Assembly: GCA_015143295.1 (NCBI GenBank)
Contig: CM026551.1
Coordinates: 45,372,034-45,436,033 of the forward strand
Length of the DNA stretch: 64,000 nucleotides
Source: Tetracentron sinense
Lineage: Eukaryota; Streptophyta; Magnoliopsida; Trochodendrales; Trochodendraceae
Reading direction: 5' to 3'
Shown: piece by piece, positions 1,106 through 46,199 of the stretch
Layout: each line of letters begins with the position of its first letter
Numbering within the stretch: the first letter of the stretch is position 1
Translations under genes and position numbers: made by a program
The notes under the pieces: generated by a model
The model's input: the letters and a program-made list of their open reading frames with translations, nothing else
Databases searched by the model: none
What the model was told of the DNA's origin: nothing

Positions 1106-1409
1106 TGTGGGCAGTGAAATTTCACCACCCACAAGGTGGGTGCATGGTGCGTCTGCCTACACAGGATCACCATTCATTGAATGGGCGGTTAAGCTTCGTG
1201 CATGCCAAAGGCACGCGCACCAGCTGGCCAAGGGCTGGCTCACCACCAGCCTACCTAGCATTATATGCTGGCAGTAGGGCAATAATGCCCTATGGATACC
1301 CCTTTATGTCAGTCCATAGAGGACTGACACGTGGTTAGGGTTTGCCCTCATGTATAGACCCCCATTCAAGCTTGCGAATAGACTCTATAAGTCCATCTAC
1401 GAGCCAGTC
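1106..1409 (+). mobile_element. Tat element 5' LTR, first segment
   Basis: It starts TGTGGGCAG and matches 31249-31552 of the 3' LTR throughout. It breaks at cagtc (1405-1409), where the Tekay-like element is inserted. The LTR resumes at 11821 with the duplicated cagtc. The ORFs at 1071-1338 only read across the transposon/LTR border and are not genes. Confidence 0.9.
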
Positions 1410-9390: not shown

Positions 9391-9402
9391 AAGGGGGAAA
9401 GA
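9391..9402 (+). promoter_or_regulatory. Polypurine tract of the Tekay-like element
   Basis: The sequence aagggggaaaga lies immediately before the 3' LTR start TGTAGAGACC at 9403. This is the expected place and composition for the plus-strand primer. Confidence 0.85.
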
Positions 9403-11820: not shown

Positions 11821-12877
11821 CAGTCAATGACTAGCTCAGTCCGTGACCATAAAAGGCCACTCATGGTCCCACCCTGTATTGGTCCATGGACCGACTATGA
11901 TTAGACCCTAATCCGCAGTCCAAATAAGCTTGGACCCGACCTAGACCGCGGGTGAGACCCATGGTCTCACCTCTTTAATTTACGGAATGACCAAGGTCAG
12001 TCATTTCCCAGATGGCAACCAGTATTTGACCGCCATGTGACAGAGAATCCTTAACAAAAAAGACACTCTGCCAGATTTGGGGGATCTCAAGATAGAGATC
12101 CCCTCTTTTTCTCCAATAATAGAGTGTTATATGACACCCTATTCGAAAGGGGAAGTAATCTCTTTCCTTTTCTTGGAAGATAAAACTCTTTCCTCTTTTG
12201 GAGGGAAGTTTTATCCTCCCAAATTTCTCAAAAGGGGAAACCAATTTGGAGTCCTTAAAAAAAAATTACTCCCATCTGTACCAGGTTTCTCTTAGATAAG
12301 AGAAACCAGTTGTTTTGAACAGATGGCCCTTTCTAAGGAAAGTTGACATTTTTTGATTTCCTAAAAAAGATGAAGTCAAAGGGGAATTTAAAGAGGACTT
12401 CCCGAAAGATATAAAAAATGGAGTTTCTCACAAGAAACTTCCATGCACGCACAAGAACCAAAAAAGGAACACACAGGCACAAAAGAAGAGAGAGAAAAAA
12501 GAGCTTTATTTTATAGGAAAACAACAACAAAAGAAGAAGAAGGATATCCGGAGAACATCAGGTGAACCCCTGATATGGCCACCTCTCTTTCTATTTTTCT
12601 TTTATTGATACAAACACCTCAATGAGATATCCTGTAATGCCTACATGTGACCTGGGCAATCCCATTGAATAAATAAAATATATTTTATTCAAATATTTGT
12701 TCTTCTTCTTAATCAGTTTCTTTCCCAAACTAGGAAGGTAATTAATAGTCTGAGTTTATTCCGATTGGAAGGATAGTCCCCCACACAAAATATTAAACTC
12801 CATACAACAATGGAGGTAATCTGACCGCAAGGTTCAAGAGGTCAATCATAAAAAGACGTTTGAAATTTGCATGTACA
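11821..12877 (+). mobile_element. Tat element 5' LTR, second segment
   Basis: It resumes at the duplicated cagtc and matches 31545-32647 of the 3' LTR to the terminal tgtaca. It holds a TATA-like gatataaaaaa at 12409-12418, followed by a leader. The U3 part has short inverted repeats, such as 12080-12088 with 12095-12103 and 12284-12294 with 12297-12307. The ORFs at 11975-12295 and 12333-12530 overlap these repeats and occur in an LTR, so I do not treat them as genes. Confidence 0.88.
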
Positions 12878-12883
12878 AATTAA

Positions 12884-12902
12884 TGGCACACCCGGTGGGA
12901 CT
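12884..12902 (+). promoter_or_regulatory. Primer binding site of the Tat element
   Basis: The sequence tggcacacccggtgggac lies six bases after the 5' LTR end. It begins TGG, as a site complementary to a tRNA 3' CCA must, and is shaped like the TGGCGCCC...GTGGGGC sites of plant gypsy elements. I cannot name the tRNA. Confidence 0.65.
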
Positions 12903-14466: not shown

Positions 14467-14615
14467 GGGTTGAACAAATACGGAATCAGAAAAAGATTTA
14501 TTATAAGTAAACTCCTAAAAATTGCTCTGGAGGTGCAAGTTAGCAAAAGTTGCTTTTTAGGTGTATGTTAGCAAAGATTCAGCCGTAACTCTTCTAGGGT
14601 TTCTTGGAAACCTCC

Positions 14616-16127
14616 ATGGCCACCGAACTCATGAGAGGTGGTTCTTCTTCTCGGCCTCCTGATCCAGTGCTCTCTTATGCGGAAGCAGCTCGACCTAAAT
14701 CCTTTGTGGAAGCTACGAATGGTGCAAAATCTCTGATCCATGAACCAGTTCATCTCTCTAAATCTCTAGCAGCTTATCAAGGGGAACCAGCCTTATTTCT
14801 CACACCTGAAGAATCCTCTAAACTAGCAACTTCTTTGAAGCTGTGTCTTGTTGCTAAATGTTCGTATGGTAGACCGGCCTTCCCAGTCATTAGAGAGTTT
14901 TTTAAGAAAAACTTCCACTTGAAACACGATTACCACATAGGAGTAATGGATCCAAGGCATCTTCTAATTCGGTTTGCAGCAGAAGATGATTTCCTTACTG
15001 TTTATCTCAAGGAATATTGTTACATCAATGGTTTACTCCTCAAATTTATAAAGTGGACTTCTAACTTCAGTTTTGGAATTGAACCTTCCATTGTTCCAAC
15101 TTGGATCTCTCTTCCAAACCTTCCACTACACTTGTATCAAGAACCAATTCTCAGAACCATTGGATCTGCAGTAGGCAAGGTCCTATGCGTGGATGGTCCT
15201 ACAAAGATGCTAACAAGGCCAAATAAAGCTCGGATCTATGTGGAACTCGATATTGCTAAAGCTAAACCTAATCGTATATGGTTGGGGATAGGTTCAATTG
15301 GTAGATGGCAAAAGATCTTATATGAAAAGGAGAACTCTTACTGTTCGTATTGCTGCAAACAAGGGAACTTTGATTCAGATTGCCGAATGATGCATAAGAA
15401 TATCCATGGTGAAGATCCAACTAATAAGGATACTGGTTTGGGAAAAGCTTCAGCCAAGGAAGAAAGGAAAACCTGGGTACTTAAAGGGAAACAACAAGAT
15501 AAAGAGGTGAAGCAATCGGTTGTTAATAAAATACCAATTGAAGTTGAATTGATTGAAGACCCAGAAAAGGATAATGATCCGGAAACTATGAAAAACGAGA
15601 TGGCAGATCTACAAGGGAGAGATCCAGACCAGGCGGAGGTCATCCAAGGTAATCATCTGATTAAGGATTCTGGATTTATCAAGGTTAACTCTAATAAATT
15701 CCAGGTATTATCTAGTCCGGACTGTTTTGCCGTAACGAATGGTGATAGCATTGTTGAGAATTCTCAAATTCGAGATAGTGAAGTTGTCATAGAATATGTT
15801 CAACCAATTCATGTTACTGTTCAAGATGTTATTCAAGGAGTAGAATCCCATCAAAGTTTGGACGAAAGTGGAATTGAGTCTATAGTTCCATTCAAATCAA
15901 AGCTGGAAATTCTGAAGAAGAGAACAATCAATACTATATCTCCTTCAACAAAATCAAAGAGAGACATCATTTGGAATTCATCTTCCTCGGCTGAATTCCA
16001 TCACGAGGTAGACCCTATTACTTTTGATCATGTAGAACAATTTTTAGTAGAAGGAAAAGAATTTCTTTCTAAACTTTCGAAGATCAAAAAAATTTCAGAA
16101 TTAGTAGTTGAAAAGGACTTGGCTTAG
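14616..16127 (+). CDS. LINE ORF1 protein, DUF4283 plus CCHC-type zinc knuckle
   Basis: A frame of 503 codons is intact and is the longest open frame in the window. The first ATG in a good context (cctccATGGCC) is at 14616; the frame is open a few codons upstream without an ATG. Residues of about 65-245 match the DUF4283 domain of plant LINE ORF1 proteins, with RFIKWT-like and VPTWISLPNLP segments (the related LINE at 41346 has RFIKWTP and VPVWISLPDLL). A zinc knuckle follows, C-x2-C-x4-N-x4-C, with Asn where His is expected. The C-terminal half is acidic and without known domains. It would bind LINE RNA as the ORF1 nucleocapsid-like protein. ORF2 follows after 89 bp. Confidence 0.85.
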   Translation: MATELMRGGSSSRPPDPVLSYAEAARPKSFVEATNGAKSLIHEPVHLSKSLAAYQGEPALFLTPEESSKLATSLKLCLVAKCSYGRPAFPVIREFFKKNFHLKHDYHIGVMDPRHLLIRFAAEDDFLTVYLKEYCYINGLLLKFIKWTSNFSFGIEPSIVPTWISLPNLPLHLYQEPILRTIGSAVGKVLCVDGPTKMLTRPNKARIYVELDIAKAKPNRIWLGIGSIGRWQKILYEKENSYCSYCCKQGNFDSDCRMMHKNIHGEDPTNKDTGLGKASAKEERKTWVLKGKQQDKEVKQSVVNKIPIEVELIEDPEKDNDPETMKNEMADLQGRDPDQAEVIQGNHLIKDSGFIKVNSNKFQVLSSPDCFAVTNGDSIVENSQIRDSEVVIEYVQPIHVTVQDVIQGVESHQSLDESGIESIVPFKSKLEILKKRTINTISPSTKSKRDIIWNSSSSAEFHHEVDPITFDHVEQFLVEGKEFLSKLSKIKKISELVVEKDLA

Positions 16128-16216
16128 AAACACAAGAAAAGTATCCTTCCATCGGATAGAATTACTCGGTCTAGAGCTATAGCTCCCATTCTACTGGAAA
16201 AATTCCCTAGTTTTCA

Positions 16217-18045
16217 ATGATTAGTATTTTATCATGGAATATTAGAGGAATTGGAAATTTAGCTTCCAAAGCCAGATTAAGAAATCTAATGGATAATTAT
16301 AACATCTCCATGATTACCATTATGGAACCTATGCAGTCTCCATATAATATTGTAGCTCTCAGCAAAATGCTTAAAATGCCGGGTTATATCACTCATCAGA
16401 AGATTTGGATCTTATGGAAAGATTGGCTGAATACTACTCTATTTGCTTCTCTAGATCAGGCTTTAATAGTTGATGTTAAAGTCAATGGATTAGATATGAT
16501 CAGATGCAGCTTTATTTATGCTAAATGTAACAGTAATGATAGACTGATTCTATGGAATGATTTGTATCTTTTATTGGCTAACTTTAATGGTCCTCTTATT
16601 CTTGCTGGTGATTTTAATGCTATATCTAACTCTGGAGAGAAATTGGGAGATAGAGATCCCAATATTCGGTCTATGGAAGAATTCAATGACTTTATTAGTG
16701 GTATGGGGCTTATTGATGCTGGTTTTTCGGGAAATAAATTCACTTGGTGCAATAACCAAGAGGGTCTTCAACTTATCTATGCTAGATTGGATCGGGTTTT
16801 GTTCAATGTTGAATGGAATAATAATTTCCTAGCTCCTCAAGTCTCTCACTTATCCAGACTCAACTCAGATCATGCGCCTCTTCTTATAAAATTTTATTAT
16901 GATAATGATCGAAGACCTGCGACCTTCAAATTCCAAAAGATGTGGACAAGTCATGCTGATTTCAAAAGGTTAGTTAATGAGTCTTGGTCTTTTCCTATTC
17001 TTGCTGATCCTATTTCTGGGTTTTTCTTAAAGCTTAAGAGACTTAAAGCCGCTCTCAAGAAGTGGAACAAAGAAATTTTTGGTAATATTTTTGTCCAGAT
17101 TAAAGATCTGGAGGAGAAAATTTGTGCCACTGAAATCATTCTTCAAGAGAATTGGGATTCTAGAGTTGATAATCAACTTAATTCTCTGAAGGAGGAATTA
17201 CAGCAGGTTATGATTTAAGAGGAAATATTCTGGAAGCAAAAATCCAGGATCAAATGGCTTAAAGAAGGAGACAATAACACGAAGTTTTTCCATGCCATTG
17301 CAAATCAAAGAAGGAAAAAGAATACTATCTACAAAATAAAAAATTCTATGGGAGAATGGATTGAGAATTCTGCTGACATTGGCAATGAAGCTTCGAATTA
17401 TTTTCAGAATCTATTGTCCTCTTCTAGAAATGGTATAGATTTGGACATTCTTAATCACATTCCTAATATGGTCTCTGAGGAAGACAATTGCATGCTTACT
17501 TCTATGCCTTCTATGGAGGAGATCAAACAGGTTGTCTTCAACATTTCCGCAGACAGTGCACCTGGTCCAAATGGTTTTGATGGTTGGTTTTACCAGAATT
17601 GTTGGGATATTATTCAGCATGATCTGATTGAGGTAGTAAAGGCTTTCTTTATATATCATTTTATTCCTACGTCAGTTAATGCCACAGCCATTGCTCTGAT
17701 TGCTAAGTGTAATGACCCCTCTTCCTTCGCTGACTACAGGCCCATCAGTTTATGCAACTTCTTTTACAAGATTTTTTCCAAGGTGTTAGCAGGCAGATTG
17801 GCTTCCATTCTTCCTAAAATTGTTTCTGAGGAACAATCGGGATTTATTAAAGGAAGAAATATCACAGATAATATCACTATAGCTCAATAAATGGTAAATG
17901 AAATTGACAGGAAAGTGTTTGGAGGGAATCTAATTATCAGACTTGATATGGCTAAAGCGTATGATCGAATGGAATGAAATTTTGTTTTTGAAGTGTTGAA
18001 GAAGTTTGGGTATAGTGTCAAATTTATCAGTCTTATTCAAGGGTG
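16217..18045 (+). pseudogene. LINE ORF2: AP-type endonuclease and N-terminal half of RT
   Basis: The ATG at 16217 begins MISILSWNIRG, the usual start of the EEP endonuclease. Further motifs are IMEPM, LAGDFNAI, FTWCNN, LDRVL and LNSDHAPLL, so the endonuclease domain reads complete. A stop at 17216-17218 ends the first frame; the same frame then continues with SRIKWLKEGDNNTKFFH and the RT blocks SAPGPNGFDGWFYQ, DYRPISLCN, EQSGFIKGRNITDNI and IRLDMAKAYDRME. Further stops lie at 17888-17890 and at the expected Trp after DRME. The FADD active site and all later domains are absent because the LINE is cut at about 18045. Confidence 0.85.
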
Positions 18046-18049: not shown

Positions 18050-19094
18050 CAGAATCTGCGGTGCCCACCAAGATGGGCCAAAACTCCAAATGCAACTGAA
18101 AAGAATGGGTTATTACTGGCCTACGATGATCATTGATTGTCTCAATTTTGCAAGAAAATGCAAAGTTTGTTAGCTCTATGCTGATTTCATACATCGAGCT
18201 CCCGAGCCTCTCCACATGACAACATTTTCATGACCTTTTGTGGCATGGGGAATGGATGTCATAGGACCATTCACTCCACCATTATCTGCTGGGCATCAAT
18301 ACATCCTAGTTGTGACAGACTACTTCTCGAAATGGGCTAAAGCCATCACTCTCAAAGGGGTTAAACATCACTCAGTGGCAGACTTCATCCGAACTAACAT
18401 CATATACCAGTTCGGAATCCCTGAAAGTATCATCACAAATAACGGGCAACCTTTTCGAAGTACCCCGATACACAAGTTGTATGCAAAATTTAGCATCAAA
18501 GAGAACCATTCCACCCTGTACTATGTAGCTGCGAATGGTCTCTTCGAAGCCTTCAATGAAACTTTGTGCAAAATCCTCAAGAAAGTTGTGGAGGACTGGC
18601 ATCAACGCGTACCTGAAGCCCTCTAAGCATACAGAACTACTTACTGGACTCCGACACAAGCCACGCCGTATTCCCTGGTCTTTGACAGTTAAGCAATTCT
18701 CCCCCTAGAAATTCAAATTCCCTCCCTACAGGTGGCAATTTAGTAGTCTATCACAAAAGAAGATTCAGCTAAGGTTCGTATTGTAGAGCTCAAAACTCTT
18801 GATGAACGTCATCTCCAAGCCCAATAGAGTTTAGAGATGTATAGACAAAGGCTAATTGATACCTTCAACAAAAGAATAAGACTAATGTCTTTCAAAATAG
18901 GGGATTTGGTCTTAATGGTTAGGACCCCAATCATTGTCACTCGTTGAACCAAGAGAAAGCTCGAACCAAAGTTGGAAGGGCCCTAAGTCATTGAGAAGGT
19001 ATATTCTAATGAAGCATACTTATTGACTTCAATGGATGAAGAGCGAATTATCCCTCCAACCAATGCAAGATTCCTAAAGCGATATTACTCCTAG
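18050..19094 (+). pseudogene. Ty3/gypsy integrase and pol C-terminus
   Basis: The frame begins in the HHCC zinc-binding region (GAHQDGPKL, GYYWPTM, KCKVC), has a stop at about 18176 and another near 18236, then reads AWGMDVIGPF, the integrase core. The first catalytic Asp (GMD) is there. The second, normally in TDNG, is Asn (TNNG). The Glu in NGLFEAFN is there. After 18626 more stops occur, but the chromodomain-less C-terminus typical of Athila/Tat elements can be followed through KIGDLVLM, LEPKLEGP and SNEAYLL, ending at 19092-19094. Integrase inserts the cDNA; this copy is dead. Confidence 0.85.
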
Positions 19095-22000
19095 GAATCG
19101 AAATGCTTGCTAGCCCAAAACTTTGAAAGACGGTCTAGGCAAAAATTAGATCACAAAAAGACTCGTTAAGTTGAAAACCCTAACGGGAGGCTTAGGTAAA
19201 AATTAGAGTCAAAATCATGCTCGCTAAGTCGAAAACCCTAAGGGGCGGCTTAGGAAAAAATTAGAGTGACAATGACTCACTAAGTTGAAAACCCTAAGGG
19301 GTGGTTTAGACAAAATTAGAGTCAAAATCAAAATATCCGCTAGACCAAAACTTTAAAAGACGGTCTAGGCAAAATTTAGGGCAAAAAAAATCTCGCTAAA
19401 CTAACACTCCAAGAGTCAGCTTAGGAAAAAATTAGAGCAATTTGATAGGCTCTTGAATACGAGTTAAAACTGTTCACGGTGCTTCAAAAGTCTCCAGAAT
19501 ACAATACCAAAGTCGAAACCCTCCTAGGTATGAACGGAAACTGCCTACTCACTCTCAAAATGCGAAATAAAGCTTCAAAAGTCTTCAAGATACAAGACCG
19601 AAGTCAAAACCCTCCTAAGTGTGAACAGAAACTACTTATTCGCTCTCAAATCGCGAATCTAAATGCCCCTTTTGAACTACGTTTGGCTTGATCCTATCAT
19701 GGGTATATAGGCAGCCTGAGAAAATTAACTTGGGTTCAGCTAGTTCTTTTAAAAGAATACTATTCCCCTGAGATAAAAAATCATCGTTATCGCCCATCAA
19801 TATGGGTGAAACGAAGAAAACTGCTACTTGATGCACCAAGAAGAAACCAAAACTCAAGTGAAGGACTTCTCGTAATCAAGGGAACGCGATTAGATGAAGC
19901 ATATCTGCTGATTACAATGGATGGAAAATGGAGTATCTCCCCCGAAAAAGTAAGATTCCCAAAGCCCGCTAGACCAATATCTCAAAAAAGATGGTGTAGG
20001 CAAAAGTTAGGGCACCAAAATACCCGCTAAGTTGAAAATCCGAAAGGACAGCTTAGGCAAAAGTTAGGGTGACATGGATCGCTATGTTGAAAATCCGAAA
20101 GGACGACTTAGGCAAAAATTAAAATACCCGGTAGACTAATACTCCAAGAGTCAGTCTAGGCAAAAATTAGGGCAACAAAAAGCTCGCTAAACTAATACTC
20201 CAAGAGTTTGTTTAGGCAAAAATTAGAGTAATTTGACAGGCTCTTGAATACGAGCTAAAACTGTTCATGGTGTTTCAAAAGTCTCTAGAATACAAGACTG
20301 AAGTCCAACCCTCCTAGGTATGAGCGGAAAGTACCTACTCGCTCTCGAAATACGAATTAAAATTTCAAAAGTCTTCAAGATATAAGACCGAAGTCAAAAC
20401 CCTCCTAGATGTGAACGGAAACTACCTATTCACTCTCAAAACATGAATCTAAATGCCCCTTCTGAACTACGTTTGACTTGATCCTATCATGGGTACGTAG
20501 GCAGTCTGAGAAAATTAACTTGGGTTCAGCTAGTTCTTCTCAAAGAACACTTTCCCCCTGGGATATAAAATCATTGTTATCGCCCATCAATATAGGTGAA
20601 ACGAAGAAAACTACTACCTGATGCACCAAGAAGAAACAAAAACTCAAGTGAAGGACTTCTCACCATCAAGGGAACTTGATTAAATGAAGCATATCTGCCG
20701 ATTACAATGGATGGACAATGGAGTATCTCCCCTGACCAATGTAAGAATCTTAAAGCCCATTGGACTAAAATCTCAAAAATATGGTCTAGACAAAAATTAG
20801 GACACCAAAATACCGGCTAAGTTGAAAATCTGAAAGGATGGCTTAGGCAAAAATTAGGGTGACATGGCTCGCTAAGTTGAAAATCTGAAAGGACGACTTA
20901 GGCAAAAATTAAAATGCCCACTAGACTAACACTCCAAGAGTCGGTCTAGGCAAAAATTAGGGCAATAAAAAGCTCGCTAAACTAACAATCCAAGAGTCAG
21001 TTTAGGCAAAAATTAGAGCAATTTGATAGGCTCCTGAATACGATCTAAAACTGTTCACGGTGCTTCAAAAGTCTCGATAATACAAGACCGAAGTCCAAAC
21101 CCTCCTAGGTATAAATGGAAACTGCCTACTCGCTCTCAAAATGTGAATTAAAGCTTCAAAAGTCTTCAAGATACAAGACCGAAGTCAAAACCCTCCTAGG
21201 TGTGAACTGAAACTACCTATTCGCTCTCAAAACACGAATCTAAATGCCCCTTCTGAACTACGTTTGTTGGCTTGATCTTATCATGAGTACGTAGGCAGCC
21301 TGAGAAAAGTAACTTGAGTTCAAATAGTTCTTCTAAAAGAACACTATCCCCCTGGGATACAAAATCATCGTTATCGCCCATCAATATAGGTGAAACGAAG
21401 AAAACTGCTACCTGATGCACCAAGAAGAAACCAAAACTCAAGTGAAGGACTTCTCGAAATCAAGGGAACGCGATTAAATGAAGCATATCGGCTGATTACA
21501 ATGGATAGAAAATGGAATATCTGCCCCGACCAATGTAAGATTTTCAAAGCCCGCTAGACCAAAATATCAAAAAATATGGTCTAGGTAAAAATTAGGGCAC
21601 CAAAATACCTGGTAAGTTGAAAATCTGAAAGGACGGCTTAGGCAAAAGTTAGGATGATATGACTCGCTAAGTTGAAAATCTGAAAGGACGGCTTAGGCAA
21701 AAATTAAAATGCCCACTAGACTAACACTCCAAAAGTCAGTCTAGGCAAAAATTAGGGTAACAAAAAGCTCGCTAAACTAACACTTCAAGAGTCAGTTTAG
21801 GCAAAAATTAGAGCAATTTGACAAGCTCTTGAATACAAGCTAAAAAGATTCGTCATTTCTCAAAGGCTTGCCCCTAAAATACAAGTCTAAACCTTCCTAG
21901 GTATGAACGAAAACTACCTACTTGTTCTCAAATTACAAGTCTAAACCTTCCTAGGTATGAACGGAAACTACCTATTTGTTCTCAAATTATAAGTCTAAAC

Positions 22001-22155
22001 TTTCCTAGGTATGAACAGAAACTACCTACTTGTTCTCAAATTACAAGTCTAAACCTTCCTAGATATGAACGAAAACTATCTACTCGTAAATTAGGAGTCT
22101 AAAATTGCCCCTATATGGAACTACGTAGGCTACCTGAAAATGGGTTCAGCCAGTT
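19018..22155 (+). repeat. Satellite-like tandem array in the Tat 3' region, ~790-bp units
   Basis: About 3.9 units follow the end of pol. The landmark gaactacg occurs at 19673, 20464, 21255 and 22118, so spacing is 791, 791 and 863. The start of each unit (gaagcata...ttgac/attacaatggatg) copies the last 25 or so codons of pol at 19018-19094. Within a unit, blocks of about 60 bp alternate (gctaa...ttaggcaaaaatta). A 54-bp block is repeated four times at 21876-22095. Reading frames at 19479-20030 and 21217-21441 are by-products. Satellites born in 3' UTRs are known from Tat/Ogre elements. Confidence 0.88.
21876..22095. repeat. 54-bp minisatellite, four copies
   Basis: A unit starting attacaagtctaaacc and containing ctaggtatgaacgga is repeated head to tail with few changes, at the end of the larger array. 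The same gtctaaacc/ctcctaggtatgaacgga module occurs singly in the earlier units, so it was amplified locally. Confidence 0.85.
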
Positions 22156-22457: not shown

Positions 22458-23940
22458 TTAAACCCTTGCCGATAAATCAAATGAAGAAATTTGTAGTGTC
22501 ATCTCGACAGTCTCACACATCCTTCTAGCTTCAGTGATGCGAGCCAAAGCAATGTCTAGCTCCCTCCAGATTTTATTCACCTCAGTGTCTACAGCATATT
22601 CAACTTCCTTGACTTCGAATAATCGAGCACGGTAGTTGTCAACAACTTCAGAAACTTCTTTTATCATGCTAGACGTTTGGCTAATATAGTCTGTCACCTG
22701 TGTTTTGATTGACTCGATGTCGATTACGTCGGTTATTTGTTGAACCCGACGAGCCAGGTTTATCAGAGTCTTGGCCTCTCTTTGCATGATTGGATTTTGG
22801 AGTCCCAAACTATCAAGAGTATTGAAAGCAGAGATACAATTTGTCTCCATTTGCCTAGATTGCTTATAGCTCCTAGTCAATAAAACAACTTTCAAAGTGT
22901 GGAGAATACACATGATGCTTTCCGCAAAAATGTCTACCATCATCGGAGAAGGCGATATGTCCGGGCCAACGACAGGAAGATTGAAAGCAAAAGGAGGAGT
23001 AGTTCTCAACCCATCAAGTGTCGCTACCAAAAAAAAGAGGAGTGTTAAAAAAAAAGGAATGACAAAAGAAAGAAACACTCACTAGAAATCTCGGAGAGTA
23101 TCCCGTGTAGGCGATGGAACTCTTTCCTGAACTCTAACCATAAGTCAGGCCTACCTTCAAATTGGTTAACTGAAGGAGGGGTAGATGGTGTGTATTTAGG
23201 CAATGGAGGAGCTTTTAACAGCAGAGCTTCATTAACAGGAGGATTGACATTAGATACCGCCTCCATCTCTGATGGATTGATGGTTATTTTTTCCTCCCCA
23301 TCTTCTACAAATAGTTCTGGAGTCTCAATATTCTCCAATTCCTGTATTGTTTCAGACATAATAACTTGAGACTCTCCTTCAGGTCCAGCTTGGGTCTTTG
23401 TCCCAACTTCGATATTTTCTGACTTTGACCTTGTCTCAGGCTCAATTGGTTTCTCCATCCGAGTTTCAAGAATAATGTCTTCAGAAATGTCATCAATAGG
23501 ATTAACAATCAGTATAATAACTATGACGTCAACCTCTACCTCTACCTTAGTTCTGCTAGGATCGAAACCAGCTTCCGGGATAGTTTCATTAAGCCCAATG
23601 GGCTTATAAACAGCCCCTGATTCAGATGACTGTCTGACATCATGGGTAGAGGGAATTGATCTCTTGGATCTTCTAGTTTGAAGCGAAAGTTTTACAGCTT
23701 CAATCATTTCACCCTTATGAAGCCGAGCTTCCTCAGCTTCTTCTTCTTCGGCAACGCTTTGATGAAAAGCTCCTAAAGCTTCATCACCAAGCCTCATATC
23801 TACAAAAGCATCATCTGGAGCTCCGTCTGTAACAGGATTATTATCATCAAGGGCCTCAGCAAAATTAGCAGATCGAGCTTTAGTCTCTGTTGCTGAATTA
23901 AAGTCATCTCCGTCAAAAGTTTCAGCATCTGGTTGAATAG
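22458..23940 (-). pseudogene. Antisense plant-mobile-domain gene of the Tat element, C-terminal part
   Basis: Two open frames of 250 and 206 codons join across a predicted 59-bp intron (23024-23082). The upstream part is acidic and low-complexity (EEEEAEEARLHKGE), then has a Pro-rich stretch (LPKYTPSTPPS) and GRPDLWLEFRKEFHRL. The downstream part, after splicing, is helical and coiled-coil-like (residues RARLFEVKEVEYAVDTEVNKI). It ends at a stop at 22458. The gene lies antisense between the tandem array and the 3' LTR, where extra antisense ORFs are known in the Tat lineage. The frame stays open to 23940, where the copia LTR begins. Function of the tail is unknown. Confidence 0.65.
23024..23082 (-). 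other. Predicted intron in the antisense gene
   Basis: On the minus strand the frame runs to ...gagatttcta, then gtgagtg (donor). T-rich sequence ends in ttttttggtag (acceptor), and the exon restarts cgacacttgatgg. Joining a|cg gives a Thr codon and keeps the frame open for 188 more codons. Unspliced reading meets a stop inside the segment. At 59 bp it is short for a plant intron but has canonical borders and a U-rich body. Confidence 0.65.
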
Positions 23941-25410
23941 TGAAAAAATTCGGTGAACCTCAAATCTGATGTTTGAGTTGAGAACTCACAAATCCAAGAG
24001 GGGATGGATTGGTTTCCCTAAAAGTCTATCTACCATTTTGAATATTTTAACAATTAAGTTATTAACTTAAGGGATGATAAAATTAAAGTGCAGAAATAGT
24101 TCACTGAGCAAACCACAACACAAGGATTTTTACGTGGAAACCTTTCCGGGAAAAACCACGGGACCTAGTCCAGCCAAGAGAAATCACTAAGACAAAGTAA
24201 ATAAGAACTTACAAGACTCGAACATGACTCCTTTGGATTCGACACTACGATCCTTCAGTTCTTAGTCCTCCACGCCTCGACAAGTCATCACGTACTCTCA
24301 AGTCCTGTGATCAACCGCAGCCGCTTGTACTTCTCTTTGTGTCTCGAAAACAGTCCATGACCTTCCGATCGATCTCTGTCAATGACGGCTTCAGATTACA
24401 CCGATCAAATCACACATTCACGATCCGTCTCAGATCGATCTCCTTCGCAAAGGCTCCGAAACGCTCCGGCCAAGTTGTTCTATCTGGAACGGGTTGATGG
24501 TTTGATAGAAATCAACACCTAGATGGACTCCTTCAATGGACAAGTCCAAACAAGCATAAGTGGAGCATTGGGCTTGTAAACTCTAGGATGAAAGGAACTA
24601 ACAAAGGGAGAAGAGCACTTAATTTCCACAGTTTTTATGAACTCTAGAAGGAGTTAAAAACCCTCTCTATACTCTCTCAAAGTTGTACTACACGAACTAG
24701 AGGGGTTCACAATATATAGGGAAGTGAAAACCATGTTTAGAAGTTGCTAAAAGGCTTAAAAACCAAAGAAGGCAAGAAAAAAAGTATAGGAAAAATTCCT
24801 ATATCAGGGTCGACCCTGGGAGTCACTTGGGTCGACCCAAACTCCTACTTCGATCGACCAAAAGGTCTTCCGAGGTTGACCTCCACTTTTTCAACCTTCT
24901 GGAATTTTCCACCATACAAAAACCTCCCATATCAGGGTCGACCTTGAGGTGCATACCTGATTTTCAAACTTCATTTTTGGCTCTCTCACCCTTCTCAAAA
25001 GTTGTAGATCTTTTCGACACAGTCGATTTGATATATTATAGAGCAAAATTTGATATACGGTTTCGAAGATATGCCACCTACAAGCAACCTTGGTTTTTTG
25101 AAAAATTTCAGAATTTTTTAACTTATTTTGCACTGCATATCTAATAACCTAGGATCCGTATCATTAGTTTAGGTCACTTACCACCTAAGGTATCATATTA
25201 GGATTATTCTAAGCAAATTCCCACCTACGGTAGCATGGTATCTAGGTCACTTACCATCCTATGAAGGAAATGATCAACTGAGTCTTCAATAGTTTTCAAC
25301 TTCACTTGTTTGCAGATGCTTGACGACAATGACACAAGATACACACCTAGACAGCTAGATTCACTTGTTTTGACACTGGAATATGGCAACACAAAAACAT
25401 GGACGTTACA
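23941..25410 (-). mobile_element. SIRE-like copia 3' LTR
   Basis: On the minus strand it starts TGTAACGTCC (25410) and ends AATTTTTTCA (23941). It matches the solo LTR at 2282-5526 and the split LTR at 36619-39001. It has GGGTCGACCC-type palindromes (24805-24950) upstream, on the minus strand, of a TATA-like ctatatattg near 24712-24721. The short ORFs at 24744-25144 overlap the palindromes and are not genes. Confidence 0.9.
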
Positions 25411-25425
25411 ATCTCCCTCTTTGGT
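25411..25425 (-). promoter_or_regulatory. Polypurine tract of the copia remnant
   Basis: On the minus strand ccaaagagggagat abuts the LTR start TGTAACG. The same relation (ctcctcctttaa, ctccccttttt next to the LTR) is seen at 39002 and 40338, which fixes the orientation of this family. Confidence 0.75.
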
Positions 25426-27150
25426 AATTCCGTGGCAAAACCAAACTGAAGTACATGACTTGATAGAAACTCACCCAAACACATCAAAATGGTGAATTAG
25501 GACATTACATGATTCCAACACTAATACATGACACCATTTGACAAATCATTTTAAATTAAGACACTTAAACTCTTGTCAAGTAAAATCTGTCTACTGCAAT
25601 CCTGCACCTACACATGCTTATTAACAAAACACTCAGTGAAGTATGTATAGAATATGAAAATAAGTAACCACAAGTAAAGAAAGGAATGTACTGAACTTGG
25701 GAAATAATACCCAACATTCTCCCCATTTTTGGCACAATTACTAAAGGTAATCATGAAGCCAATATCACAAAGAATATATCAATTTAACACATGTGAAATT
25801 TCAAGGCAATCACAGTACAACCAAGTAAATGCAGACAATGTGGGGACTAAGGGAACAAAAAGGAATATAAAGCACAAACTCCCCCTCAACAACTCAACTT
25901 GATCTTCTCCTCCTAAGATCAACGATACCATCAAAAATAGGGCACTTATGCTAGAAATGCCCATGACAACCAATACGGAAACAGATAATAATATCACAAA
26001 AAAATATCATGTGCTACACAAACATGCATCAAAAGCATTCCAAGCAGTAGTAATTTAAAATTACGAATCCAATGAAGTACATGATTAGTTAGACCGACTG
26101 AGGATACATATCTAACTCTCACGAAATGCTAAAGCATAGCCAATTTACTTAGTCACATTTAGTGAACAGTTCAAAAGTGAAGCATTTGTGTGTAGAGGTG
26201 GTCTGATTAGATACTAGATCAATGTTTCTTTCCCTTTCCAAGGATATGACATTAACCACTAAGGGGACTCCCGGATATATACATCATAGAATTCAAACCA
26301 AGTTAGATCTAGATATGTTGATTTCTTACATTTTAGTGCTCATTTTTCATTTTATTTGACTCATTATTTTTCTTTTACTATTGGTCAAATACCTCCGAAC
26401 TTGGTAAGATTTCTTTTGATGTTCTTTATCTGAACATATCTTTTCATGCAATGATGACTTTTACACTATCTAAGTAGATAGTCCTGGCTATTAGCAGCAA
26501 GGGCTTTCACTCTAGTGACCCAGATAGATACCTACTATCCGCCTAGGTAGCCATTTCATATTGTTTGCATCCAATAGTGATTTTTACACTAACCCAGTAG
26601 GTAGTCATTTTCATTGCAGTAATTTTTGCTCATGGAGGATATACAAAATGGGGATGACTAACAAAATGGTCATTCTAGATTAGTTATCCAAGGTCACACT
26701 ATTGAAATAAGTCAAACACCTACAAATTGGAAAATAAACCTCTGAACAAAATCAGTCAGAGTGCGTGTGAAATTTGTAAAGCATACACACATAAATAAGT
26801 TTCTAACTATTTAAGATAAACTCGGTCTAGTTTTCAGCCTAACCAAGAGATTATGAAGGTGATATATCCTCAATCAGTAACAAAATCATGTTCAACCCTG
26901 GACAAGTATAAAAATAAAGATCACACAAGTTATGCAGATCATGCTAGTCAAACAAGGGCAACATGACAAAAATCTTTTTGGATTTTAGGGATTTTCAATG
27001 TTTTTGGATTTTTCAAAATAAAGAAAACAGAAAAACATACCAAAGTAAAGAAAGACTAGTAAAAAGAAAGAATACTAGTATACACAGATAGCATAGCACT
27101 AGGACAAGATATATCACTAACAGCACACCCTAGGCTAAGATAGGCACGGG
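25426..27150 (-). other. Noncoding 3' region of the copia remnant
   Basis: Between gag and the polypurine tract lie 1.7 kb without a frame above 72 codons. No RT (YVDD), integrase or RNase H motif is visible, so pol has been lost. The segment at 25426-25690 recurs at 39015-39300 and 40350-40640, confirming that it belongs to the element interior. Confidence 0.65.
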
Positions 27151-28398
27151 CTAAGTGAAGCCCTTCAGGTCTTCCTTTCTCACCCAAACAGTTTTAGAAG
27201 TTTGATTGACTCTTTGGTCTCTAACCGTTTCAGTTGAGATAGGTATGACCTTTTGCCTCTTCCTCCTATTCCTCCTTTTCCAGGATTGAGTCCTAGAGTT
27301 ATGGCGGGCATTATGGTTCTCCCTGTTACCTCCTCTATATCTAGCATGAGGAGTGTCATGACCATACCACTGTCTAGAGTTGTGAGCAATTTTCATCACA
27401 TCTTCACACAAACTCCTAGACTTCTCCACTAGGACCTCAACTCTCCTTTGAAGATTCTCATTAAAGTTGTTGTGGTTTTTAAAACCATGATTGGGCATTC
27501 TTCGAAGTTTAGGACATCGAGGCTTAATATGACTCTTCACTCCTCATTTATGACATGTAGGAATGAATTTCTGAGTAGAAGGGTCTTTTCCTTTAGCAGG
27601 AGGGTGCCTTTTAGCACCAGGCTCAATGTTCGAGGTGGATGGAGTTTCCTTCTTGTCTCCACACCTCTGATTTTGCTCAAGATCAGCTAACTTGATTTCA
27701 AGACTTGTCTTTTCATCAACAAAAACATGCAAATCAGATTCAAGAAGCTGAATCTTGGCAATGAGGGAAGCCTTCTCTTCCTCAAGCTGTGACACAAGAG
27801 CTCTCAACCCTGAAGCCACTTGGTCTAAGACATCTTTTTCCATTTCAATAGATTTGATCTTTTTGGACATGAAAAACTTAACCTTTTTCAGCTTTAGGCA
27901 TTCCTGAAATAGTTCATCATAGGCTGCTTCAAGGTCTCCCTCAGAATCTGAGTCATTTTGACTCTCATTATCCTCCTCACCATCGCTACAGTGTTGGTTA
28001 CTCATTGCATTTGAAGAAGATTCCTCAATCCAAGATAAGGATGCAGTGAAGGTCACATAACCCCTAGTCTCCTCATAAGAAGAACTATTTGATTTTTCAG
28101 ATTCAGATTCACTGTCATCCCTTGTCTTGCCCTTAAATCTTTTCTTATTAGAGCATTTAGCGACAATATGGCCGTAGCCTTGACATTCATAGCATTGAAG
28201 ACCTTAGGATTTCTTGTCTACACTTTTAAAATGTTTTTTGTTTTCAAAGTGCTTGGACTTAGGCTTTTCAAAAGATTTTTGTTCCTTCGGGTTAAATCTT
28301 TTATTAAATTTCAAAATTTTTCTAAATTTCTTTGCAAATAAAGCCAACTCTTCTTCTTCATCCTTAGAGTCACTATCTGAATCATCTATAGATTCCTA
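27151..28398 (-). pseudogene. SIRE-type copia gag, C-terminal two thirds
   Basis: Reading on the minus strand: an acidic start (ESIDDSDSDSKDEEEELALFAKKFRKIL) contracted here to its key feature, EEEELALF-AKKFRK, is typical just before the knuckle. Then a stop at 28204-28206, a CCHC knuckle CYECQGYGHIVAKC, an acidic Ser-rich stretch, a heptad-rich coiled coil, and a second knuckle C-H-K-*-x4-H-x4-C in which the second Cys codon is TGA (27544-27546). Further on is a basic tail ending WVRKEDLKGFT, the usual gag/pol border in SIRE elements. Gag would form the particle and bind RNA. The N-terminal UBN2 part is missing. Confidence 0.82.
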
Positions 28399-28400
28399 GT

Positions 28401-29905
28401 GAAGATCTCTTATAATTCTTGGAGCTTCTTTCAAAATTGGGGGTTTAGCCTGGTCATAGCCAAATTGCCTTGTGAAACGGCTTGGGAAGTATGGTTTAAT
28501 ATAGCACTTCTCTCCAACACGCCATAAAAGCTTGGTGGGCGAAGGCTCATCATTGTTTCGTAATGAAGGAGTGTAACATGAGCATCTCCTTTTGAAGGGT
28601 TGTCCACCAAAACAGTGTCTCCCCTATGCTCAATTCTCCCTCAGAATGGACGTGGCTCGTATCGAGGAGTTGTGAACATATCCCGAACTCGCTCTTGAGT
28701 GACGAACTGGGTTGGCATCTGGTCAACAATAAAAATTAAGCTCAGAAGATGAGCTTCAGCCTTAATCTCTTCCCTTCTTTGATAAGTGCAAGCAAAATAC
28801 TGACTGATCCCTCCATATAGATACTGGAAAGGTCCTTGAGCTAATTGCTTCCCTGGGTATTGGCTCTTCGCAATGGTTCCTAATTCCCAGTATAGACTGG
28901 ACATCATTGGGATCAGGAGACAATGCTTAGTCCCTGTAGCTAGCCAACCGGCCACAACGAATGTCTCTGGACGAATGACCACTCCTCGATGGGAAGGCAG
29001 CACGAAACTACAAAGCCAACATGAAATGAAGGTAGCCAGATAAACTTTGTGGCTTATACCGTAGCTGGTCAGAATTTTAGAACTTCGGATTTCGTCATCA
29101 GACAGAGTAGGCTCTGGGTTCCTCAAGTACTCGTTGGCTTTGCCATGGAAGAAACACTTCAACCACAAAGTAAAGGAAACTCTACGAAAAAGTAGCCTTT
29201 CTTTTTTTCTGGTGCATCAGCTGTTTTTGACGCTTCTTCATCTTCTTCCTCTTCAATGGATACAGTAGCTGCTACTACGGCCATCTTGCCTTTTATATCA
29301 CTTAGTTTGCGACCAAGGATGATGTTATAAGCAATGAACAACTCCTTGGTGCAGCTAGGGACCTCATCTGAGTAGAGGTTGACATTAAACAAAGTAAATT
29401 CGTCATACGTGGCTCCGTCAATGGGAAGTCCCGAAATGTGGAACATAGCGTTCATCGGAAAACCGACCTCTCCCCAAGCCATATGAAATGTGTTGGTTGC
29501 TACGCACTATCGGTTCAAGAGACTGCGTAGAAAATGTGCATCTCTTTTATATTCATACCGAGCCAATGTCACGGCTCCCTAGATCCCAACTGTATTCAAT
29601 TCTGTGTGGAAGCGGACATAAACATCGTGCACCCATGTTGGTCATAAATCCCGGGTGTTTACGAATGAAGCATCCTTAATCTGCATCACGTTATCCCATA
29701 GGACCTTGTCTGTCCTAGTCAATAGGTTGTCAAATCTTTCTTTGACCACTCTAGTCGGATCTTCTACAGATAAATCAGCCTCTTTGAGAGATTTTAAGTA
29801 TAAGGCCTGACCTTCACTTCGGCTAGATATAGCACCAAGCCTGGGATCGAAAAGGGCAATAGGAGCAGTACTACTTCCCACCCATTCAGTTGGGTCTCGT
29901 ATCTT
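28401..29905 (-). pseudogene. Antisense plant-mobile-domain gene, N-terminal part
   Basis: The minus-strand reading passes RDPTEWVGSSTAPIALFDP, DAHFLRSLLE, then after a one-base shift CVATNTFHMAWGEVGFPM and GLPIDG, the signature of the plant mobile domain (PF10536, aminotransferase-like family). It goes on with FISCWLCSFVLPS, VIRPETFVVA and, after a stop at 28641 and another shift, SRFTRQFGYDQ. Stops lie at about 29642 and 29580. The domain occurs in host genes and in several transposons. It continues at 23940 beyond the copia insertion. No good start ATG is visible. Confidence 0.75.
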
Positions 29906-31143
29906 GAAGGATTAAACTTATCTAACACCACCTGGGCTCATTATCTTTATGTGACGGGTCAAAGTCTAGCCAGTTTGATCAACTTCGTCAATTTCCAGCC
30001 AACGAAGCGCCTGCTTTCCAATAAAATGTTGTGAAGAAATGGTCATTTTGCACAAAAGAAGAATGGAAGTTAATCAGGTATGGTATGTTACATAAATAAT
30101 TAAAATTTGTTAACAATATTCCTAAGGGGATGAAATAATAGTTGGGTCACAAATAGACCTAAGTCTTAACTAAAATAGTCACTTTTAATTAAAATGCCAA
30201 GGCATTTAAAATACCCTAAGTTGTGGGATAATTCAACTAGGCGTGTTTCAAAAAAGAAATTAAATAAATTTTATAATAACCTTAATCGGTTGAAAATGAT
30301 CTAAGGATCTTATCTTGGGACTTAACAAAATTTTGGAAAATTCCTACCCACAAATAAGTCTATGGGCAAGTTTCAGGACAAAACCAAAGTTTTTAAAAAG
30401 TCCATGTCCATGACAAAATGTCCACAGGCAGTAATTAGTGCCCGCAGGCATAGTGCCCACGAACACTAAATAAAGCCTACGGACACAAAGGTCTTTGGGA
30501 CTGTTTTAAGCCCGCGGACAAGGTCCTTGGGCAAAGTCAGCCCGCAGATAAGTCTACAAACAAGAGGTCATCTTCTCAGATAACCCTTCAGGTTTTCCTC
30601 ATCGGAAAACCTTGGAATCCTGGTAATGGTACTGAAATTCTTGCAAGAAAAAAAGCAGGAAACCCAAAAGGGCATTCCAGGGGTCCCTTCAACAGGAAAA
30701 ACCCCAAGAATGCTCAAAAGGGCATTCCGAAACATCTGGATGAAGAAAATCCCTCATCCTGGTTTCTGTAATCAAAAGAAACCCAAAGAAAGAGTTTCTT
30801 TCAAACTAACAGAGTACGGGAAAGACCAAAAAACCCTTCCCTGTAACCGGTTTAATTCGAAAAGGGAAAGCCCACCTGAAAATAAGGGGGCAAAGTGAGA
30901 GGAAGAAGGTTTTCTTCTCTGAAAGTGGAGAGCTCTGGGTTGTGGAGCTCTCTGGTTCTTTGAAAATGGAAAGGCAAAGTGTCTTCCTTGAGAACGAAGG
31001 GCTCTTTATATAAGGACCCCTCTTAAATAAATCCAGGTTGTCCATTTAAAATGGATAGCCCAGATGGTAGAAGAAGATCTCTCGACGTCTGGCATTAAGG
31101 AGGAGAAACCTTCATCATGAGGGTTTCTTGAAACCCACTACGA
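29906..31143. other. Tat element 3' region upstream of the 3' LTR, no certain gene
   Basis: This would be the 5' leader of the antisense gene. It has an AT-rich part (30060-30340), a cccgcgg/gcccgcagg-rich part (30410-30560) like that at 13700-14060, and a purine-rich part with short frames (30626-30898) that I do not recognise. A TATA-like site lies at 31006-31012. Confidence 0.5.
31004..31015 (-). promoter_or_regulatory. Possible promoter TATA of the antisense gene
   Basis: The minus strand reads ccttatataaag, followed by a pyrimidine-rich leader-like stretch, about 1.1 kb upstream of the first recognisable codons. The core is nearly symmetrical, so direction is uncertain. The minus direction fits the only coding region nearby. 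Confidence 0.4.
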
Positions 31144-31238: not shown

Positions 31239-31248
31239 AGGGGTATTT

Positions 31249-32647
31249 GTGGGTAGTAAAATTTCACCACCCGCAAGGCGGGTGTATAGTGCATTTGCCT
31301 ATACAGGATCATCACCCATTGAATGGGTGATTAAGATTCGCGCATGCAAAAAGTACGCGTACCAGCAGGCCAAGGGCTGGCTCACTACCAACCCGCCTAG
31401 CATTAAATACTGGCAGTAGGACAATAATGCCTCGTGGATACTCCTCTATGTCAGTCCATAGAGGACTGACACGTGGTTAGGGTTTGCCCTCGCGGACATA
31501 CCCTCATTCAAGCTTGCGGATAAACTCTATAAGTCCATCCGCAAGTCAGTCAATGAGTAGCCCAGTTCGTGCCATAAAAGGCTATGGACTTAACCCAGAC
31601 CAAGGGTTGGACCCATGGTCCCACCCTGCATTGGTCGTGGACTGACTAAGGTCAGACCCTAGTCCGCAGTCCAAATATGCTTGGACCTGACCTAGACCGC
31701 AGGTGAGACCAATGGTCTCACCTCTTTAATTTGTGGACTAACCAAGGTCAGTCCTTTCCCAGATGTCAGTCAGTATCTGACCGTCATGTGGCAGAGAATC
31801 CTTAATAAAAAGGACTCTCTACCAGCTTTGGGAGATCCTAAGATAGAGATCCTCTTTTTTTCCCCAATAATAGAGTGCCATATGACACCATATTCGAAAG
31901 GAGAAGTAATCTCTTCCCTTTTATGGTAAGATAAGACTCTTCCCTCTTTTTGAGTGAAGTCTTATCCTCCCAGGTTTCCCAAAAGGGAAAACTAATTTAG
32001 AGTCTTTCAAGAAAAAGGACTCCTATCCGTACCAGATTTTTTAAGATAAGAGAAACCAACTGTCTTAGACAGATGACCCTCTCTGAGGAGAGTTGACCTC
32101 TTTCGATTTTCTTAAAAAGAGGAAGTCAAAGGAGAATCCAAAGAGGACTCCCCAAAGGATATAAAAAATGGAGTTTCTCACAAGAAACTCTCATACATGC
32201 ACAAGAACCAAAAAAGGAACACACAGGCACAAAGGAAGAGAGAAAAAAGAACTTTCTTTTATAGGAAAACAACAACAAAAGAAGAAGAAGGATCTCTCAT
32301 CAAATGGAGAACATCAGGTGAACCCCCAATATGGCCACATCTCTTTCTATTTTTCTTTTATTGATACAAACACCTCAATGAGGTATCCTGTAATGCCTAT
32401 ATGGGATCTGGGTAACCCCATTGAATAAATAAAATATATTTTATTCAAATATTTGTTCTTATTTATTCTTCTTATTAATCAGAGGTTCTTCCTTAAACTG
32501 GAAAGGTAATTAATAGTCTGAGTTTACTCAGATTGGAAGGATAGTCCCCCACACAAAATAATAAACTCCATAGAACAATGGAGGTAATCTGACCACAAGG
32601 TTCAAGAGGTCAATCAAAAAAAGACGCTTGAAATTTACGTGTACAAC
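31249..32647 (+). mobile_element. Tat element 3' LTR
   Basis: Uninterrupted LTR of 1399 bp from TGTGGGTAG to TGTACA. It has a TATA-like gatataaaaaa at 32158-32168 and a leader, matching 12409 onward in the 5' copy. The 86-codon frame at 32168-32428 starts in the promoter region, and the equivalent part of the 5' LTR has no such frame, so it is not a gene. Many single changes and small indels separate the two LTRs, so insertion is not recent. Confidence 0.9.
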
Positions 32648-37600: not shown

Positions 37601-37984
37601 TTAAAAGTTTTATTTAATAAACAGGTAGGGGTCTGCCAAATCTCCCACTCCTCTTGAGTGACTTTAAAAAAAATAATAATAAATTAAAAAAGTAAAAAAA
37701 TTAAGGGATGATGTACTTTAAAGTGCGGAATAGGAAAAACAAGTAAACCACAATACAAGGATTTTTACGTGGAAATTCGGAAAAAACCACGGAACCAAAT
37801 CCAGTCAAGAGATATCACTAAGACAAAGTCAACAAGAACTTACAAGACTCGAACTTGACTCCTTCGGACTCGACACTACGATCCTTCAGTTCTTAGTCAT
37901 CCACGTCTCGAAAAGTCATCATGTACTCACAAGTCCCGTGATTAACCGCAGCCGCTCGAACTTTTCTTAGATCTCAAAAATAAC

Positions 37985-40900: not shown

Positions 40901-41346
40901 CTAACAAAGGGGAGGAGAGAGAATAATTCCCAGAGTTTCTATCAACTCTAAAGATACCCCAAAGTGCTTCAACACACTCCCCAAGTCCAATTTTCGGACT
41001 AGAAGGGTTCAAGTTAAATAGAGAAATCAAAACCAAAGATTAGAAGTTGCTAAAAACCAAAGAGGCAAAAATTCTCATATCAGGGTCGACCTTGGGAGTC
41101 ACTTGGGTCGACCCAACTGCCAACTTCGGTCGACCCAAGTGTCTTCCAGGGTCGACCCTGGAATTTCTTGCATTCTGTCTCTTTTCCCATACGTTATTTT
41201 TGAGACTCAGGGTTGACCCAAAGTGCTTAGGGTCGACCTTGAGGTGCAAACCCATTTTTAGAAACCTATTTTTAGCTTTTGCACCCTTCACGAAAGTTGT
41301 AGATCTTTGCGACGCGGTCGATTTGATATATTATGGAGCAAAATTT
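37985..41346 (-). repeat. Tandem 1336-bp units made of LTR plus interior
   Basis: Three head-to-tail copies start at about 37985, 39321 and 40657; the last is cut at 41346. Each contains the LTR from cttccgatcgatct to its end and then about 320 bp of adjacent interior (purine tract, ccgtggcaaaaccaaac). The junction aacattcacga...ttgatcttcttcc is the same at 39305-39333 and 40644-40670. The copies differ by scattered changes. Short ORFs at 39711-40080 and 41040-41291 are not genes. Confidence 0.85.
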
Positions 41347-41806
41347 GGAGAAGATTAGAATCTGTAGAAGACTTTCTTGTTGTTTGGTTAAAAGAATTCA
41401 GTTACATTGAAGGGCAGTTGGTTAGATTCATTAAGTGGACTCCCTTATTTCAAGCTGGAGCAGATCTTATTGTGGTGCCGGTTTGGATATCCCTTCCAGA
41501 TCTACTGATCAACTTGTTTAATCCCAAGGATCTAAAGGCAATCGGTAGTATTGTTGGGAGGGTCTTGAAAGTGGATGGGTCGACTAGAACAATCTCTAGA
41601 CCTAGTTTGGCGAGAATTTGTGTGGAGATTGATGTTAATAAAGAGAAGATCAATAGGTTTTGGCTCGATTTAAGTACTGTGGGGAGATGGCAATCCATAG
41701 ATAATTTGTGCATCATGCAATAAGGTGGGGCATTCGAAAGAGGAATGTAATAAAAGTGTTAAAAAACTTCATAGAGGACTAGATCCGAGAAGAATAAAGA
41801 AAACTA
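41346..41806 (+). pseudogene. LINE ORF1, first part: DUF4283 and zinc knuckle
   Basis: Reading DFLVVWLKEFSYIEGQL, RFIKWTP, VPVWISLPDLL and RICVEIDV aligns with the ORF1 at 14616 (about half of residues alike by eye). A shift near 41700 leads to a canonical CCHC knuckle, CASCNKVGHSKEEC. The ATG at 41307 lies in LTR sequence and is not the start. The frame is cut by the Ogre-type insertion after KKT. Confidence 0.8.
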
Positions 41807-44243: not shown

Positions 44244-44262
44244 GTTGCCCCTCTTTGTCGGA
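44244..44262 (-). promoter_or_regulatory. Polypurine tract of the Ogre-type element
   Basis: On the minus strand gacaaagaggggcaac abuts the LTR start TGTAAACACC, as expected for a plus-strand primer. Confidence 0.75.
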
Positions 44263-46130: not shown

Positions 46131-46199
46131 CTCTATCGGATGCTCAGAAACCGCTTTTGAGAATCAAGCTTCACTTATTTCACCTGGCTAGTGGACGTG

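Follow-up and report, generated by a model that had tools for sequence, protein, structure and literature searches.

The stretch analysed here, 64,000 nucleotides of Tetracentron sinense DNA (assembly GCA_015143295.1, contig CM026551.1, positions 45,372,034 to 45,436,033 of the forward strand; referred to below as the window), contains at 1106–32645 what reads as an old, decayed Ty3/gypsy long terminal repeat (LTR) retrotransposon of the Tat lineage (Ogre/Retand type). Antisense to the remnant of its pol lies a gene for a plant mobile domain (PMD) protein, and this gene has very probably kept an intron through rounds of retrotransposition. A first-pass annotation of the window had made the same proposal, which is supported by the presence of the intron in dispersed copies of the gene, by selection on the coding sequence at both sides of it, and by a second family whose PMD gene, antisense to pol in the one locus read for this, has two introns and whose young members occupy three separate insertion sites. 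Promoter use, splicing and the function of the protein we infer from sequence.

The accessory PMD gene would be carried antisense between pol and the 3′ LTR, with at least one ordinary GT-AG intron. As strand logic and the conserved introns suggest, an antisense pre-mRNA would start from its own promoter, be spliced and give the protein. The genomic RNA strand would read the same intron as CT...AC, which is no intron, and would be copied unspliced in each round of reverse transcription, and the protein would be kept by selection for as long as the family was active.

The antisense gene and its tail intron

On the minus strand the gene opens with an ATG at 30046 and closes with a stop at 22458; it lies between a tandem array and the 3′ LTR, where the first-pass annotation had placed it. 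The limit of 29905 given there falls short of the coding start, which lies at 30046 when the start region is aligned with four relatives (L019, L025, L027 and L028). With an integrase remnant on the plus strand (18237–18626), the gene on the minus strand (22458–30046) and the 3′ LTR from 31248, the order is that of an antisense extra open reading frame (ORF) of the type called eORF-3′R or aORF-3R. The parts of the gene are:

28404..30046, minus strand: PMD-coding part, ATG at 30046–30044 (Pfam PF10536, three-frame reading, and start-region alignment with the four relatives)
23938..28403, minus strand: inserted piece of ~4.5 kb breaking the gene (LTR-like similarity to other window stretches; gag-like frame)
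23083..23959, minus strand: tail part of the long coding exon (open frame; ~20 nt next to 23959 are part of the inserted piece)
23024..23082, minus strand: tail intron, 59 nt, phase 1 (GTGAGT...TTAACA...TAG), present in 26 of 26 aligned copies
22458..23023, minus strand: tail exon 2, the coding end (open frame; stop at 22460–22458)

The minus-strand junction CTA/GTGAGT...TTTTTTTTGGTAG/CG, exactly 59 nt apart, joins the frame of 23083–23959 to that of 22458–23023. In the window alone 16 GT..AG pairs within the searched range give an open join, and the match is no better than chance; the tail intron is taken as real because 25 other genomic copies carry it. A 643-nt query against the 1.16-Gb assembly found 34 places, the window included, of which 26 (the window and 25 others) were aligned. 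The intron body is present in all 26 of these copies from the same genome, with the GT kept in 24, the AG in 20 and a TAAC motif in 25. Intron lengths span 51–78 nt and leave, modulo three, 0, 1 and 2 in 9, 7 and 10 copies, respectively. No intronless copy was seen among the 26, and the eight remaining matched places, judged by alignment, start beyond or inside the intron, none of them at the exon 2 edge (query base 78) expected of a copy without it. The GT..AG ends, the branch-like site, the T-rich composition and the free length alongside kept exon frames are those of a U2-type intron, and the 59-nt frame-restoring intron predicted from the window at 23024–23082 is thus borne out by the window and by the other 25 copies.

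Selection is evident on both sides of the intron in this group of copies, which we call family 1. The median ratio of nonsynonymous to synonymous substitution rates (dN/dS) is 0.36 in the 3′ part of exon 1 (298 pairs; wrong frames 0.57 and 0.81) and 0.32 in tail exon 2 (283 pairs of copies; wrong frames 0.67–0.72). Exon indels relative to the window that are common to several copies are of 6 nt (10 copies), 3 nt (2 copies), 21 nt (2 copies) and 1 nt (7 copies, at the very end), so that three of the four are multiples of three, compared with 2 of the 24 exon indels confined to a single copy.

These data also bear on a reading with no intron, in which a single old frame was disrupted when an indel arose within the A/T runs at 23030–23057. 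The runs of 8 and 9 A there are prone to slippage, and any of the 16 pairs would restore the window frame. The stretch nonetheless takes lengths of 51–78 nt, in every residue modulo three, across 26 copies whose flanking frames are under selection; no single read-through frame fits this, and the splice ends and TAAC motif are mostly kept. A frameshift in place of the intron is ruled out by the 26 copies, and we regard a gene without the intron as extremely improbable.

The copies are dispersed. Twenty longer loci, ~77–87% identical to the window, are spread over many contigs; 18 of them have array, upstream-region or LTR sequence of the element, 100 nt or more of it, beside the gene. A host locus carrying the gene outside any retrotransposon, which the first-pass annotation had named, next to copies lacking the intron borders, as a finding that would speak against it, was not seen among these; L017 and L026 are without clear placement. 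There are also groups of near copies among the 26, more than 90% alike in the tail (L013/L014/L017, L018/L022, L061/L062 and L060/L063), some of which share a contig.

The gene copy in the window is, as read from its frames, dead and not intact. PF10536 matches at 28641–29216 on the minus strand (E 5e-5, 23.1 bits) under the curated cut-off of 34.9, the gene being fragmented. The four PMD motifs listed in the first-pass annotation are all present but spread over three frames, with CVATNTFHMAWGEV and GLPIDG in the first, VIRPETF in the second and FTRQFGYDQ in the third. Frame changes lie near 29215 and 28520, and there are three in-frame stops in 30046–29905, three more in 29905–29230 and one at 28643–28641. 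The inserted piece at 23938–28403, which we read as a (truncated) copia-type element, replaces ~430 nt that the relatives L010 and L015 have, and contains a gag-like zinc-knuckle frame (27544–28203; zf-CCHC E 0.009, below cut-off). Searches with the PMD piece gave 29 candidates in a large protein database, none at E 0.001, and no relative among viral contigs.

The tail had been described as a fused coiled coil. A new fusion it is not: in L010 and L015 it follows the PMD without such an insertion, and is therefore the gene's normal C-terminus. The coiled coil itself is unproven. The long tail is probably helical: for tail exon 2 AF2, given one sequence as input, predicts helix throughout, at low confidence (pLDDT 60). 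Six family-1 tails scanned against Pfam gave no match above a cut-off. Weak LEDGF matches occur in two of the six (window 22461–23021 on the minus strand and L009:4694–5254; 12.9 and 15.9 bits against a cut-off of 26.3), and are likely to be chance similarity among helices.

A second, younger family with two introns

Searching the genome with PF10536 gave 3522 first-look candidates, of which 117 were scored, with 119 matches listed; 30 loci were cut out, and 20 of them (L038–L056 and L058) form one family of close copies. The domain is well preserved here, L046 reaching 165.7 bits over positions 2–346 of 347. One locus, L064, shows the PMD gene opposite to reverse transcriptase, RNase H, second RNase H-like and integrase pieces. 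Its frame at 4356–6140 holds RVT_1, RT_RNaseH (216–319) and RVT_3 (373–491), the last of which we read as the second RNase H (aRH), and the next frame shows an integrase zinc finger; this order fits that given for Ogre/Retand elements in Neumann 2019, and the family appears to be of Tat type.

Both introns of the second family are conserved. The first, after the PMD exon, runs GTAAG...CACAG over 101–116 nt in 20 of 20 copies. The second, of 94–114 nt, fits a strict pattern in 14 of the 20 and a looser one in all. Among the 19 loci used for exon lengths and frames (L047 was dropped, as no start pattern was found in it), 17 have an exon 1 of 1863 or 1866 nt and 18 an exon 2 of 496, 499 or 502 nt. 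After splicing, the frame continues without a stop through the whole fetched piece in 10 of the 19; unspliced, it does so in none. Across 18 aligned copies the exons are 93.8% identical and almost gapless, compared with 84.5% and 86.2% identity and 14% and 8% gaps in the introns. The dN/dS was calculated after dropping L039 and L047, with the commonest exon length only (12 and 15 of 18 copies) and from pairs with dS above 0.03; it is 0.08 for PMD exon 1 (63 pairs, 12 copies) and 0.19 for exon 2 (95 pairs, 15 copies), with wrong frames at 1.0–2.1.

The strength of this selection matters for the idea that the antisense transcript acts as RNA, for example as double-stranded RNA limiting the element, with the protein secondary. 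An RNA role has been proposed for such ORFs in the part of the review available to us (Vicient and Casacuberta 2020, PMC7264820), and an account of tea, of which an excerpt was available, lists 175 PHAS loci at PMD genes. The dN/dS of the PMD exon and the near-constant exon lengths instead indicate selection on the protein, and we consider a mainly RNA-based role improbable. Selection on the protein suggests that the protein probably helps the element.

Three of the second-family copies, L044, L045 and L046, are ~100% identical over 4243 nt, with both introns kept. In the young copies the alignment stops at a sharp TGTAGGGG edge, and nothing similar lies beyond. Given the near-identity and the absence of alignment past this edge, the three appear to have inserted recently and separately, keeping both introns. 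The flank test covers three copies, and on the LTR side L066 is only ~91% identical to the other two, over a tandem-repeat stretch.

Were the copies spread by segmental duplication of DNA, the keeping of introns would say nothing about retrotransposition, and the few family-1 loci that are more than 90% alike in the tail, some on the same contig, would suit this. The 20 longer loci, at ~77–87% identity to the window, are found on many contigs; in the second family the three young copies end at exactly the same LTR edge and are dissimilar past it; and the window element has an LTR pair and a near-perfect 5-bp repeat. Segmental duplication as the general explanation is accordingly very unlikely.

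Retention of introns through retrotransposition is thus the reading we prefer, and several observations weigh against it. Besides the ambiguous join in the window taken alone, the pairwise dN/dS values are not independent of one another, having history in common. The AG is lost in 6 of 26 family-1 copies and the GT in 2 of 26 by point change, which fits decay and also relaxed constraint. Indel runs counted over all pairs are multiples of three in a proportion of only 0.41 and 0.33 in the exons, compared with 0.18 in the intron; the low share reflects that the copies are mostly dead, frame keeping being seen in the inherited, shared indels. L017 and L026 (2 of the 20 longer loci) are not placed in an element, as the match beside the gene is limited to its own 3′ flank, over 38 and 120 nt. 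The orientation of the second-family gene relative to pol was read in one locus (L064). Finally, the window copy is dead, and splicing is a prediction from DNA sequence.

The two families differ in their intron positions. The window PMD piece was not joined to the second family by tblastn at E 1, and a common origin of their tails is unsupported (hhalign probability 0.3). In the second family the last exon has a Pfam match to PEARLI-4 (L064:1682–2752, plus strand; E 4.4e-7, 30.2 bits against a cut-off of 29.9). On the same strand and 1.0–1.8 kb downstream, PEARLI-4 was found at no fewer than 37 of the 119 PMD matches (54 of 149 PEARLI-4 rows used), and other PEARLI-4 matches cluster on contig C11 near 20.74–20.99 Mb.

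Candidate promoter and the host element

A promoter of its own near the 3′ LTR, opposite to gag-pol, likely drives the antisense gene. Upstream of the ATG, alignment with relatives points to two candidate features:

31005..31012, minus strand: TATA-like box TATATAAA, candidate antisense promoter (alignment with relatives)
30048..30876, minus strand: candidate 5′ leader intron, from CAG/GTGGGC to an acceptor next to the ATG (acceptor CAA in the window)

The TATA-like box is TATATAAG in L019 and L027 and TATATTAG in L025, and falls in a gap in L028. The leader acceptor is CAG in L019, L027 and L028 and TAG in L025, so that an AG stands next to the ATG in all four relatives. The window, L019 and L025 share the donor, which is AAG/GTGGG in L027 and missing in a gap in L028; a CAG/GTGRG donor is present in 2 of the 4 aligned relatives. 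Family 1 thus probably has a leader intron, for which the case is weaker than for the tail intron. Second-family copies have a more regular leader: of 18 aligned copies, 17 have a GGTGAGT donor and all have CTTTCAG as the acceptor beside the ATG. TATAAAA is present in the six rows printed, and TATAAAAG in 7 of 18.

The element that carries the window gene is laid out as follows:

1106..1409, plus strand: left part of the 5′ LTR, beginning TG (1103–1409 against 31245–31551, 261 of 307 positions identical)
11821..12877, plus strand: right part of the 5′ LTR (86.5% identity to the 3′ LTR)
12884..12901, plus strand: likely primer binding site TGGCACACCCGGTGGGAC, directly after the 5′ LTR
18237..18626, plus (sense) strand: integrase core remnant (Pfam rve, E 5.3e-8, 33.5 bits against a cut-off of 32.6)
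19109..22117, plus strand: tandem array of ~790-nt units with 54- and 91-nt subrepeats, between the pol remnant and the antisense gene
31248..32645, plus strand: 3′ LTR, from self-comparison with the 5′ LTR

The two LTRs are 86.5% identical over 1040 columns, and the putative target repeat, ACATA before the 5′ LTR and ACACA after the 3′ LTR, agrees in 4 of 5 bases. The primer binding site is a candidate by its position, and we take TGGCACACCCGGTGGGAC to resemble that of Tat/Ogre elements. The integrase piece, on the plus strand, is what was found of the element's pol; it looks Tat-like in our reading, and a second RNase H (aRH) frame was not found in the window element.

Other insertions and repeats surround these features. 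Another LTR element, at 1410–11820 with CAGTC on both sides, splits the Tat 5′ LTR, and is itself split by a stretch resembling the piece inserted in the antisense gene. A long interspersed nuclear element (LINE)-like element with DUF4283 and endonuclease frames (14598–17890) occupies the place expected for most of the Tat pol. Tandem copies resembling the LTR-like part of the inserted piece, 90–91% alike and spaced by ~1337 nt, are present at 37690–41347. Long arrays of 11-, 40-, 41- and 44-nt repeats lie at 42438–46230 and 52900–53845; the 44-nt array is found twice, ~10.5 kb apart, inside a repeated stretch.

Relation to known systems and possible function

Antisense ORFs and PMD ORFs are known in the Tat lineage; what appears to be new is the conserved introns of these genes and the strong selection on the coding sequence. 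A search of the open-access literature, where hits were mostly seen at the level of listings, turned up no account of such antisense genes having introns; Gomez-Orte 2013 and Steinbauerova 2011, the latter reportedly a source on PMD-coding extra ORFs of Ogre-type elements, may describe them.

The sources below were available in part, and statements taken from them are limited to those parts. Neumann 2019 (PMC6317226) records a PMD in 57% of Ogre elements, and uses getorf to call extra ORFs, with 250 codons as the minimum frame, by which a multi-exon gene would be cut up. The window gene resembles these Ogre-type ORFs in its PMD, its Tat lineage, its position outside gag-pol and the tandem arrays in the element; it differs in its conserved introns, as the available part of Neumann 2019 mentions no intron. 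In Ikeda 2017 (PMC5418596) the clades PMD-A1 and PMD-A2 occur only in gypsy elements, and the word intron is absent from the available text. A 2022 paper gives the PMD as the commonest extra domain of gypsy consensuses.

The first-pass statement that extra antisense ORFs are known in the Tat lineage agrees with the available portion of the review by Vicient and Casacuberta 2020 (PMC7264820), which covers Grande gene23, RIRE2, Retand and PvRetro13. Like the window gene, these are antisense between pol and the 3′ LTR; the differences are the PMD protein and the conserved introns found here. That portion describes no clear protein similarity for the antisense products, save an SMC domain (PvRetro13) and Transposase_28 (Retand), reports a promoter of its own and a nuclear product for maize Grande gene23, and calls for study of antisense and spliced transcripts. 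A 2025 review, as far as it was accessible, states that introns are generally absent from plant LTR elements, Ogre and EVADE excepted, and in Ogre splicing is described as affecting only a subset of transcripts. These are also plant LTR elements that use splicing, with the difference that their introns are on the genomic RNA strand and those described here on the other.

Kinship with host PMD genes was examined with a tree of 15 rows, in which the window falls among other element copies (83/89), and three presumed host genes (L029–L031, candidates by our own label; L029 is a single open frame of 680 codons) form a separate supported group (97/97). By tree position the window gene therefore sits with the family-1 element copies and not with MAIN/MAIL. 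The branching of family 1, family 2, the presumed host genes and the MULE-like PMD genes has no supported order. This third PMD type (L032–L036 and L057, MULE-like by our label) occurs at several places in copies 96–100% identical, and seems to carry an intron of its own within the PMD region.

Our best guess is that the protein would work in the nucleus, where it may interfere with or imitate host MAIN/MAIL1. The available text of Ikeda 2017 (PMC5418596), and other literature, has the host PMD proteins MAIN/MAIL1 silencing transposons, and the window protein shares the PMD family with them, the presumed host genes forming a tree group of their own. A silencing-related role, suggested by this analogy, is tentative and, with the window PMD far from the presumed host genes, somewhat doubtful. 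The gene may instead be a transposition helper (for nuclear entry or integration), unrelated to host silencing. The similar antisense product GENE23 of Grande is nuclear in the accessible part of PMC7264820, the tail is predicted to be helical, and there are the weak LEDGF matches. Those matches are well under the cut-off and confined to two of six tails, and we hold the helper role as a possibility with a fair way to go before it could be called probable. It is also conceivable, if unlikely, that the antisense strand serves as a refuge for introns, giving the message of an anti-MAIN/MAIL1-type protein splicing-dependent export and protection from silencing with no risk of intron loss. Introns that are selected, and not only tolerated, would fit their different places in the two diverged families.

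Retrotransposons are expected to lose introns through copying of their RNA, yet two diverged Tat-type families in one genome keep theirs, and the gene is antisense where this was checked. This suggests that the strand, and not the element, decides the fate of an intron. A survey restricted to uninterrupted ORFs may give a wrong picture of how large the accessory proteins are, which domains they contain and how well they are conserved, and spliced antisense reads would be a clean marker for the expression of these proteins.

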